Assembly: GCA_947630795.1 (NCBI GenBank)
Contig: CANRJC010000002.1
Coordinates: forward strand, 1 to 64,000
Length of the DNA stretch: 64,000 nt
Reading direction: 5' to 3'
Source: an uncultured Phascolarctobacterium sp.
GTDB lineage: Bacteria > Bacillota > Negativicutes > Acidaminococcales > Acidaminococcaceae
This document shows, one piece after another, positions 1 to 59,612 of the stretch. Position 1 is the stretch's first letter. Every line of letters starts with the position of its first letter. Under the pieces are notes generated by a model. That model searched no databases, was not told the DNA's origin, and worked only from the letters and a program-made list of their open reading frames with translations. A program made the position numbers and the translations under genes.

Positions 1-1143
1 GTGCCTGCCGGCCATTGGGCTTATGACAGCATCGAGAAACTGGCTGCTGCCGGCGTTATCGATGGTTACGGCGACGGCACTTTCGGCGGCGACAAGCTGA
101 TGACCCGCTATGAGATGGCTCAGATCGTGGCCCGGGCTATGGCCAACGGCGCCAACGTGGACAAACTGGCTGCCGAGTTCGCAGATGAACTGGATGCTCT
201 GGGCGTGCGCGTTGCCAACCTGGAGAAGAAGGCCGACGCCGTTAAGATCACCGGCCAGATCCGTGCTCATTACCAGAGCTTCAGTGGCTACCCAGCAGCA
301 GCAGACGCTACCGTCCTTCGTTCCCGTCTGTTCTTCAAAGGCCAGATCAACGATGATTGGACTTATACCGGCATGATCGAGAACCAGCAGAATCTGCGCA
401 ATGACACCGGTGATGAGGTCACCAGATTCCAGCGTGCCTTTGTAAACGGCAAACTGGGCGGCGTAGACATCGAAGCAGGCCGTAACCATCTGGTACTGCT
501 GGGCAACGGCGGCCAGATCTACGGCAACCGCGCCGACTATGTGAAAGCTTCTTACGGCAAAGACATCAAACTGACCGGTATCGTAGGTAAGATGTCTTCC
601 GGTACTGGTGCTAATGTTGCTGGTGGTGACAACTACGGCGAAGATTTCTGGGCTGCTTCCGTAAGCGGCAAGATCGGCGTAGTGAATGCCGAAGCTATGT
701 ACGTTGACGTAGATAGACAGCTCAATGTTGGTGTTGCTGATGGTGACAACAGCATCGTGAGCATCGACGTGAAGTTCCCCATCGTGAAAGACCTGACCTT
801 GGAAGGTCTGTGGATGAAGGCTAAGGAAGACGATGCCGACGGCAACGATCAAGGCATCTTCGCAATGTTGAAATACAAAGGCGCCAAAGCCAACAAACCC
901 GGCAGCTGGGGAGCATATGCTAAATACTACAACGTAGCCGGCACTACCGTTATTCAAAACGGTGAGGACAACACCTTCCCGAACAAATTCCTGACCAGCG
1001 GCTTTGAAGGCTATGCAATCGGCGCCGAGTATGCGGTTGCCAAGAACATGGTAGCTCTTATCGACTACGAATATCTGGAAGATAAGATGGACGGCGGCGA
1101 AGACGGCGCTGCTCTGTGGAGCCAGTTGGTGATCACTTTCTAA
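1..1143 (+). CDS. SLH-domain outer-membrane porin (OmpM type), 5' end outside window
   Basis: The reading frame is open from base 1, and the first codon (GTG) is the Val of the DVPAGHW motif seen inside the two full-length paralogues at 51.8 and 53.6 kb, so signal peptide and true start lie upstream. Visible order: most of one SLH domain (to about residue 50), a helical coiled-coil stretch (about 52-80), then a barrel-like region of alternating polar and aromatic residues ending in ITF, the terminal Phe typical of outer-membrane barrels. In Negativicutes such proteins tether the outer membrane to peptidoglycan-linked polymers through the SLH domain and form pores. The N-terminal 80 residues are nearly identical to the other two copies while the barrel diverges. 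Family call is firm; the transported solute is unknown. Confidence 0.93.
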   Translation: MPAGHWAYDSIEKLAAAGVIDGYGDGTFGGDKLMTRYEMAQIVARAMANGANVDKLAAEFADELDALGVRVANLEKKADAVKITGQIRAHYQSFSGYPAAADATVLRSRLFFKGQINDDWTYTGMIENQQNLRNDTGDEVTRFQRAFVNGKLGGVDIEAGRNHLVLLGNGGQIYGNRADYVKASYGKDIKLTGIVGKMSSGTGANVAGGDNYGEDFWAASVSGKIGVVNAEAMYVDVDRQLNVGVADGDNSIVSIDVKFPIVKDLTLEGLWMKAKEDDADGNDQGIFAMLKYKGAKANKPGSWGAYAKYYNVAGTTVIQNGEDNTFPNKFLTSGFEGYAIGAEYAVAKNMVALIDYEYLEDKMDGGEDGAALWSQLVITF

Positions 1144-1423: not shown

Positions 1424-2038
1424 CTATGATCTTAAAGACTGTTTGAATATAGCATCGACACAGGCGACAGGATATTTTTGTTTCAATGAGTATGATATAG
1501 AAGATAAGATGCTTTTGATCTGTTTTCTCAGTTCTTCTATTTCCGAGGAACGATCGTCGGAGGATCTTTTGAGTGCCATTATGCGATAGGCAATATCTTT
1601 GGCCTTCTCCAAACATTCTTGTTCATAAGCGATCTTCAACAGCAATATTTTGCTGTCTTGATCTATGGAATATAGCAATTCTTTTATAGCGAGCACTAAT
1701 AATCGATAGAATTTATCTCGCTCAAGTCGTGCCTCGATAACTGTATTGCCTTCCTTCAAGGAAATAAAACGGCTGGCATTTACGGTCCGCACCTGATTAA
1801 AAACAGCGTATGTATCGTTATTTTTCAAAGAGGAGGGAAGGGACTCGATTTTTCCCAAAAGGACCTTATTTATGCTACTGCCGTTACCTGAACTGGTCAA
1901 AGGCATGACGATAAAGGTCGACTTATCGTTGTTTTTCTTCAATACTACGGCAAGATGCTTTCCGTCAAATTCACAGGGCTTCACGGGATCAAAGATAACA
2001 TTGTATATGCGACCGATCTTAATATCGCTTGCTCGCAC
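1424..2038 (-). CDS. PemK/MazF-like endoribonuclease toxin with C-terminal helical extension
   Basis: The 204-residue product starts at GTG (2038-2036), with AAGGAG eight bases upstream. Residues about 6-120 fit the PemK/MazF fold: GRIYNVIFDPV near the start, then HLAVVLKKNN and FIVMPLTSS, the usual order of strand, conserved VVL strand and PLTS. Known members are sequence-specific endoribonucleases. Residues about 120-204 are predicted helical and charged, an extension absent from short MazF proteins. Base composition is clearly richer in A+T than the flanking housekeeping genes, which suggests transfer. No MazE/PemI-like antitoxin gene adjoins it; instead a candidate small RNA with its own terminator lies just upstream on the same strand. 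MazF-type toxins and type III ToxN toxins share a fold, so assignment to type II or III is open. Confidence 0.72.
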   Translation of the reverse strand: MRASDIKIGRIYNVIFDPVKPCEFDGKHLAVVLKKNNDKSTFIVMPLTSSGNGSSINKVLLGKIESLPSSLKNNDTYAVFNQVRTVNASRFISLKEGNTVIEARLERDKFYRLLVLAIKELLYSIDQDSKILLLKIAYEQECLEKAKDIAYRIMALKRSSDDRSSEIEELRKQIKSILSSISYSLKQKYPVACVDAIFKQSLRS

Positions 2039-2081
2039 GATCTTAACTCCTTATCAAATGTACTCTATAAGATAAAACTCG

Positions 2082-2253
2082 AAAGAAAAAGAGCCCCGCT
2101 GTCAAGCGAAGCTCTTATCTTGACGTTTTCTTTAGGTGTAAGCATCTGGTCGATCTGCGGTAACGATACACCCGAAACAACACTCCGCACAGTACGTAAG
2201 TCGACATATTCTTTGCTTCAACATAAAGTTTGTCGCTTGCACCGTCGGTTACT
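2082..2253 (-). ncRNA. Candidate ~170-nt small RNA upstream of the PemK-like toxin
   Basis: On the minus strand a consensus promoter (2259-2287) is followed about 165 bases later by an intrinsic terminator: stem AAGAGC/GCTCTT with inner CGCT/AGCG (2089-2116), then TTTTTCTTTC. No convincing protein is encoded between them. Pairing seen by eye includes GGTGTA/TACACC and GTAAC/GTTAC. Next to and inside the terminator, GTCAAG and CTTGAC can pair in a way that excludes the terminator stem, so read-through into the toxin gene could be modulated. No tandem repeats typical of ToxI RNA are evident. It could be an RNA antitoxin, an attenuating leader or an unrelated small RNA. Confidence 0.6.
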
Positions 2254-2258
2254 CTGTT

Positions 2259-2287
2259 ATTATATAAAAGAGGCGTGAGGTCGTCAA
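2259..2287 (-). promoter_or_regulatory. Housekeeping-type promoter for the small RNA
   Basis: Minus-strand TTGACG (2287-2282), a 17-base spacer and perfect TATAAT (2264-2259). Transcription would begin near 2253. It is back to back with the promoter of the HigA-like gene, with only 16 bases between the two -35 boxes. Confidence 0.85.
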
Positions 2288-30635: not shown

Positions 30636-30806
30636 AAAAAAGCGCACTCCGACAGGGAATGCGCATAGTTCTACCTACACTTTGATCTGCAATGCGTCTC
30701 GTCCCGGTCTTAAAGATCCAAGCGAATATTGACTCATAAAATTTTTGCGGTGCCCGGGCCTTGCGGTGCGACTCCCGATAGGATGTCGCCCGCTGCCGCG
30801 CTCACC
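30636..30806 (-). promoter_or_regulatory. Structured leader RNA with terminator upstream of the pan operon
   Basis: Between the promoter (30813-30841) and a terminator (GCGCATTCC/GGAGTGCGC on the minus strand, 30642-30664, then TTTTTT) lie about 145 bases with strong pairing: GCGAC/GTCGC and GCGGTG with either of two CACCGC copies. The terminator ends about 60 bases before the DUF2520 start codon, the usual layout of an attenuator or riboswitch. It does not match the T-box, TPP, FMN, SAM-I or cobalamin motifs as I know them. Rfam describes a pan motif before panB genes, which could be this. Confidence 0.6.
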
Positions 30807-59377: not shown

Positions 59378-59395
59378 TTTTTTGACGAACAAAAA

Positions 59396-59612
59396 GATAG
59401 AGGCGCGGGAAGCATGAGTAACCTGATGAGCGGCAGCGATGAAACGGGAGAAAGGGCCACCGCCGAAGTGGAGCGCCGGGCGCGGCGGTCTGCTGGGACG
59501 GCAGCGAAGAGCTGACGTACTGTCGCCGAGCATGAGGCTTGAGCGGAGGGCTATCTCGCATTACAGGCATTGTAACCGTTGAGAGCCGCCGAAGCCCTCA
59601 ACGGTTTTCTTT
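59396..59612 (+). promoter_or_regulatory. Lysine riboswitch (L box) with terminator
   Basis: Conserved aptamer segments appear in order: AGAGGCGCGG, ATGAGTAAC, GGGAGAAAGGGCCACCGCCGAAG in part, TGCTGGGACGGCAG, and GGAGGGCTATCTCGC closing the junction. The aptamer covers about 59396-59562. The terminator stem AACCGTTGAG/CTCAACGGTT (59574-59606) and TTTTCTTTT follow. Lysine binding favours termination, cutting expression of the dapB-asd-lysC-dapA operon, whose first start codon is 22 bases beyond. Confidence 0.95.

Follow-up and report, generated by a model that had tools for sequence, protein, structure and literature searches.

How is a toxin kept in check when no antitoxin gene stands next to it? 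The question is raised by the first 64,000 nucleotides (positions 1 to 64,000, forward strand) of contig CANRJC010000002.1 from an uncultured Phascolarctobacterium sp. (assembly GCA_947630795.1), the stretch of DNA analyzed here and referred to below as the window. On its minus strand, a near-consensus, sigma-70-type promoter (TTGACG-17-TATAAT, positions 2287 to 2259, 11 of 12 consensus matches) is followed by about 170 noncoding bases, by an intrinsic terminator (stem at 2116 to 2089, then a T run) that marks the boundary between RNA and toxin gene, and, 50 bases past the terminator, by a GTG-start open reading frame (ORF; 1424 to 2038) encoding a PemK/MazF-family toxin-like protein of 204 residues. 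An AAGGAG motif lies upstream of the GTG start, at about 2047 to 2052, and none of the six small surrounding ORFs matches an antitoxin in Pfam. A preliminary description made from the sequence had noticed the promoter, the noncoding stretch, the terminator, the gene, and the lack of an adjoining protein antitoxin, all of which hold up. The description did not recognize that the noncoding stretch is a member of the Rfam family drum (RF02958), detected by the covariance model at 2118 to 2226 on the minus strand, with the −10 element 32 bases ahead of the motif.

Drum was reportedly described by Weinberg and others in 2017, who may have noted the neighboring gene. Rfam lists the family as a small RNA gene and assigns it no function. 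A literature search that covered few subscription papers found nothing that links drum or PBECR4, the protein introduced below, to toxin-antitoxin function or gives drum a function, and the mention of drum in PMC7657543 is structural (here and below, sources given by PMC number are cited for the available parts of their text).

The comparison of genomes presented here suggests an answer. Elsewhere, the gene behind drum usually encodes PBECR4 (PF18813), and drum and PBECR4 very probably make up an RNA-antitoxin system. The window locus, in which a PemK-like gene follows drum, is probably a working type III-like unit with an exchanged toxin, as judged from its sequence.

Linkage of drum and PBECR4

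Drum was searched for with RF02958 in 100 genomes of relatives, 398 genomes of the phylum, 295 of one order, 391 of one class, and 300 of the window's class (the sets overlap), and the next same-strand gene was assigned by inspection together with a PBECR4 profile. PBECR4 came next at 37 of the 50 distinct matches above the Rfam cut-off, intact at 32 and decayed, that is, truncated or frameshifted, at 5 (L196, L202, L203, L294, and L301). A PemK-like gene followed drum once, in the window. No toxin followed at 10 matches (L010, L198, L201, L295, L298, L208, and L210 to L213), and 2 drums lie at a contig end, with the next gene undecidable (L008 and L214). Among the toxin-less drums, L295 and L298 have close relatives (L294 and L296) that retain PBECR4 or its remnant. 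Five matches below the cut-off were left out of the 50; an intact PBECR4 follows L310, a broken one follows L209 and L311, and none follows L073 and L312. In the 100 relatives, PBECR4 was found in five genomes, all among the seven with drum and each time directly downstream of it (hypergeometric p 2.8e-7).

Conversely, when five aligned PBECR4 proteins were used to query 84,980 species genomes, 50 PBECR4 loci were retrieved, from Lachnospiraceae and other Clostridia, Negativicutes, Lactobacillus, Treponema, and further taxa. These loci include repeats (L018, L045, L047, and L049 are the same as L003, L005, L004, and L006, respectively; L063 is the same as L310; and L019 and L020 are alike). 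Drum is present at 46 of the 50, in 40 cases by the Rfam cut-off and in 6 more, just upstream of the gene (E 6e-6 to 4e-3), by R1, a model built from 43 drums, none of which came from the ten PBECR4 loci missed by Rfam. Drum is missing at four loci (L052, L058, L060, and L065), all of which carry broken genes, and an intact PBECR4 gene without drum is absent among the 50: drum accompanies 39 of 39 intact genes versus 7 of 11 broken ones (Fisher p 0.0014). The gap between drum and the toxin match measures 43 to 118 bases at 39 of the 40 loci recognized by Rfam and is mostly occupied by a hairpin and T run; only at L029 is drum farther away, 1.5 kb upstream, and there it was counted as present.

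Several drum loci show further peculiarities. The toxin-less drums L208 and L210 to L213 are near-identical, dispersed copies in one genus, four of them in a genome that contains a drum-PBECR4 unit as well. Three drum copies occur at L024 (2343 to 3767), one upstream and two downstream of PBECR4, and a 6A RNA (RF02925) is located about 100 bases upstream of drum at L008 (1346 to 1396). In the window's family, S-layer-homology porin-like genes repeatedly adjoin drum units (L004, L005, L006, and window positions 1 to 1143).

Architecture of the unit and proposed mechanism

The drum-PBECR4 loci share a constant order of promoter, 5' hairpin, drum, terminator, and toxin. Promoters with at least 9 of 12 consensus matches are present upstream of drum at 30 of 33 loci, compared with 10 of 33 shuffled sequences, the −10 element lying mostly 28 to 37 bases ahead of the motif, and a terminator follows drum at all 33 loci, compared with 2 of 33 shuffled ones. 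The 5' hairpin belongs to an extended architecture of drum relatives outside the Rfam model. In an alignment of 43 sequences, the loop of the main hairpin pairs with a segment ahead of the UAG motif, forming a pseudoknot helix that is missing from the Rfam structure line; 94% of the cells are paired, and compensatory changes occur in five of five pairs. All five pairs are formed in the window, between GUCGA in the hairpin loop (2201 to 2205, minus strand) and UCGAC (2149 to 2153, minus strand). Another long-range helix forms between the following loop and the 3' tail (84% paired, compensatory changes in three of three pairs). The structure as a whole is 93% paired; a shift of one to three columns brings this value down to at most 44%, and none of 500 shuffles attains it. 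Given the covariation and these controls, drum RNA is pseudoknotted.

The preliminary description had further suggested that a GTCAAG/CTTGAC pairing next to the terminator could act as an antiterminator. This pairing is real in the window yet confined to 2 of the 33 loci, the window and the sister-species locus L003, and therefore does not represent a conserved antiterminator; the candidate was rejected. Seven more of the 33 loci have a different 6-base match at the drum 3' end and terminator region.

In the mechanism that we propose, a strong single promoter would supply an excess of the short, structured, pseudoknotted drum RNA, and leaky termination would let a small amount of transcript reach the nuclease gene. 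The RNA would bind the nuclease and keep it inactive; if the element is lost or transcription stops, for example, upon phage infection, drum RNA would decay and release the free nuclease. In most bacteria, this nuclease would be PBECR4, with a BECR fold, and in the window genome, an unrelated PemK/MazF-family protein acquired by toxin exchange. If this is true, drum and PBECR4 explain each other, as the two parts of an RNA-guarded nuclease system that is widespread in gut Bacillota, Treponema, and plasmids of enterococci. The ribonuclease function of PBECR4 is predicted from Pfam and from the work of Iyer et al. (2017; PMC5512222). All 35 aligned PBECR4 proteins match PF18813, 34 of the 35 have no match in the PADLOC defense models, and the genes are annotated by domain only. 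PBECR4 has a conserved histidine within an FHHLAGLHKL motif.

Plasmid and viral copies

PBECR4 is encoded in 21 plasmid records (20 from Enterococcus and 1 from Streptococcus suis), five of which are typed as conjugative. In all five of the plasmids examined, drum lies just upstream of PBECR4 and scores above the Rfam cut-off (46 to 52 bits), with a promoter-like sequence and a terminator visible. Such carriage fits an addiction module.

Neither drum nor PBECR4 was found in named phage records. In IMG/VR, a first drum pattern proved unspecific (at least 120 stretches, with two clear drums among the 80 scanned with R1). A second drum-derived DNA pattern returned 51 stretches, in 16 of which R1 confirms drum (E < 1e-5), in addition to L125 from the first pattern; the contigs are called phage on the basis of their IMG/VR label. 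PBECR4 follows a viral drum only at L261, where it is broken. A transfer RNA (tRNA) gene lies within 1 kb of drum in 11 of the 16 stretches, compared with none of the 35 pattern matches that lack drum (p 9e-8); allowing for repeats, these are about six independent cases (L148, L255, L277, L283, the L266 group, and L288), plus L125. Viral drums stand alone within tRNA arrays at L255, which has three drums among tRNAs, L277, L283, L266, L272, L281, L286, L148, L288, and L125, and a terminator is mostly missing (seen in 1 of 12).

A phage-borne pseudo-ToxI is a known antidote decoy (PMC5086642), and phage tRNAs evade defense (PMC11555353). By analogy, the stand-alone viral drums may be antidote decoys, and their location in tRNA arrays, taken together with the BECR fold, suggests a toxin that cuts tRNAs. 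The broader idea that drum is a portable RNA antitoxin for unrelated nuclease folds, that the drums of phage tRNA arrays disarm a toxin as decoys, and that this toxin cuts tRNAs is put forward tentatively, at somewhat less than an even chance. The viral copies offer a testable case of phages that carry an RNA antidote.

The PemK-like protein and drum RNA of the window

The 204-residue protein matches PemK_toxin (PF02452) over residues 9 to 92 (E 2.2e-8, 34.7 bits versus a cut-off of 23.1). This is the sole family above the cut-off, and ToxN-type families give no match up to E 1, in line with the earlier impression that the protein is nearer to PemK/MazF than to ToxN. NCBIfam gives only sub-threshold matches to MazF, PADLOC returns nothing significant, and a profile comparison with PBECR4 reveals no similarity. 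A helical extension is predicted past residue 106; the structure model has low confidence (predicted local distance difference test [pLDDT] score of 44), too poor for a fold comparison with ToxN types, and was not used.

The window drum passes the RF02958 gathering score marginally (43.6 bits versus 43; E 5.7e-7 in the 501 bases searched) and reaches 57.9 bits with R1, the training set of which contains the window row. Its pseudoknot is retained, as are promoter and terminator. At the sister locus L003, in the same-genus genome G001, drum and terminator are followed by PBECR4, the place of which is taken in the window by the PemK-like gene. Between the two loci, drum is 72% and the terminator 86% identical, compared with 49 to 55% for the upstream flanks and a shuffled or random expectation of 46%. 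Because the RNA cassette is common to both genomes and the toxin differs, the locus is read as a case of toxin exchange. The PemK-like protein would then be the current partner of the window drum and would be neutralized by it, and the window offers a way to examine how an RNA antitoxin could switch from a partner of one protein fold to one of another.

Contrary evidence and alternative explanations

Several observations weigh against these readings. Two intact PBECR4 genes (L237 and L238, in genomes G982 and G796) have other noncoding leaders and no drum; both leaders end in a hairpin, and that of L238 has two similar segments, possibly another RNA antitoxin family. The distances between RNAs and between toxins are correlated (mirror-tree, r 0.85, 35 loci), but this correlation may only mirror shared ancestry and is therefore not used as proof. 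The AlphaFold2 model of PBECR4 (pLDDT 94.4) has no match in the PDB by Foldseek at E 0.001, nor does the protein by sequence, and its resemblance to ribonuclease toxins in structure comparison is weak (BrnT, Z 3.9; RelE proteins, Z about 3; CdiA toxin, Z 2.8); unrelated rows share equal Z, so that the model is only compatible with BECR. As for the window, the pairing of drum with a PemK-like gene was seen once. Close homologues of the 204-residue protein were found neither in the 100 relatives nor in 260 genomes of the class, where the sole matches are a decayed fragment in the window genome and a remote PemK protein (L306, E 0.001) with no drum, and none was found in viral contigs, plasmids, or phage records. 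The window drum scores lowest of the 24 above the cut-off in its class. The conserved 5' hairpin, present at nearly all other loci compared, is lost from its RNA (−1.3 kcal/mol), which forms six of nine P2 pairs and two of three P5 pairs, as would also be expected of decay. Early decay and adaptation to a new partner are both compatible with the altered RNA; exchange is given the greater weight because the spacing and the expression signals are intact.

One alternative is that the window drum is a leftover antitoxin, solitary since the loss of PBECR4, behind which the PemK-like gene was inserted by chance. Such a drum would either counter incoming PBECR4 modules in trans or have no activity left, and control of the PemK-like protein would lie elsewhere. 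Solitary drums are common, as the 10 toxin-less matches among 50 indicate, the window RNA lacks its 5' hairpin and some pairs, and there is one example of the pair. However, the promoter, the pseudoknot, the terminator, and the spacing to the toxin start have all been kept, conservation is higher in drum and terminator than in the sequences flanking them, and every intact toxin ORF among the 50 PBECR4 loci has a drum. We regard a leftover as unlikely, although it deserves more attention than the two explanations that follow.

PemK toxins are normally paired with protein antitoxins, and the PemK-like protein might belong to a type II unit, neutralized by a protein encoded either by the divergent helix-turn-helix (HTH) gene at 2381 to 2716 on the plus strand, which starts 343 bases from the PemK-like gene, or elsewhere in the genome. 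The end of the PemK-like gene is present a second time in decayed form (L002, 1454 to 1673; 93% identity over 167 bases), and this copy likewise adjoins a remnant resembling the HTH gene. The HTH protein, however, is of the HigA type: four of its six relatives with more than 60% identity (L216, L217, L219, and L231) are encoded directly after a Gp49/HigB gene. It was therefore rejected as the partner and is listed as a solitary antitoxin, a neighbor probably outside the unit, with no Gp49/HigB toxin gene ahead of it in the window. Since the operon also lacks an antitoxin-like ORF, a type II arrangement appears improbable. Least probable of all is that drum acts purely in cis, as an attenuator or riboswitch-like control of read-through with no role in trans. 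The fixed order of drum, terminator, and gene would suit such a leader; toxin-less drums, both the dispersed copies (L208 and L210 to L213) and the orphans (L010, L198, L201, L295, and L298), would not, nor would the viral tRNA-array drums, most of which have no terminator, and 24 of the 33 loci lack a 6-base stretch at the drum 3' end that could pair with the terminator region.

Comparison with known systems

Type III systems, as reviewed, combine a nuclease with a pseudoknotted RNA made of repeats and have one promoter and a terminator (PMC5086642). ToxIN, CptIN, and TenpIN (AbiQ) resemble the drum units in their single promoter, upstream pseudoknotted RNA, Rho-independent terminator, and nuclease gene, and, like the drum-PBECR4 modules, they occur on both plasmids and chromosomes (PMC5086642). 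In contrast to the type III RNAs, which are tandem repeats of about 34 to 50 bases (PMC12373285), drum is a single-copy RNA of about 110 bases that belongs to a different Rfam family, and its putative partner is PBECR4 or a PemK-family protein instead of ToxN. The type III-like reading of the preliminary description stands in part. Support for the layout is much stronger than the window sequence by itself could give: the conserved RNA family lies ahead of toxin-like nuclease genes across Bacillota and Treponema, its promoter and terminator keeping constant positions. The window has the layout, namely, an upstream noncoding RNA of a conserved family, one promoter, a Rho-independent terminator, and a pseudoknot, and it has neither a toxin of the ToxN/CptN/TenpN families nor tandem RNA repeats, the lack of which had been noted and agrees with the single drum copy at the locus. 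For these two reasons, the unit is not filed under ToxIN, CptIN, or TenpIN, although its sequence suggests that it works like a type III system.

The nearest precedent is AbiF, whose RNA antitoxin turned out to include an Rfam motif (PMC12373285). The AbiF/AbiFr system (RF03085, HEPN-type toxin) resembles drum in that an Rfam motif and a terminator lie upstream of the toxin gene, and AbiFr RNA binds and neutralizes AbiF in cis and in trans (PMC12373285, PMC12737573). It differs in RNA family and toxin fold, and the Clostridioides difficile AbiF leader holds two motif copies. The PBECR domains were described from phage polyvalent proteins by Iyer et al. (PMC5512222), and the usual toxin partner of drum, PF18813, is one of them; the available part of that study treats PBECR as effectors of phages and mobile elements and does not mention an RNA partner. 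The window protein shares the PF02452 domain with the PemK/MazF toxins of type II systems but, unlike them, has no cognate antitoxin gene adjoining it, the neighboring HTH protein being HigA-type, and carries an extension of about 100 residues after the domain.

Other RNA elements in the window

Three Rfam matches were obtained in the 64-kb window. Besides drum, these are a lysine riboswitch (RF00168) at 59390 to 59561 (86.5 bits) and a pan motif (RF01749) at 30695 to 30792 on the minus strand (47.1 bits).
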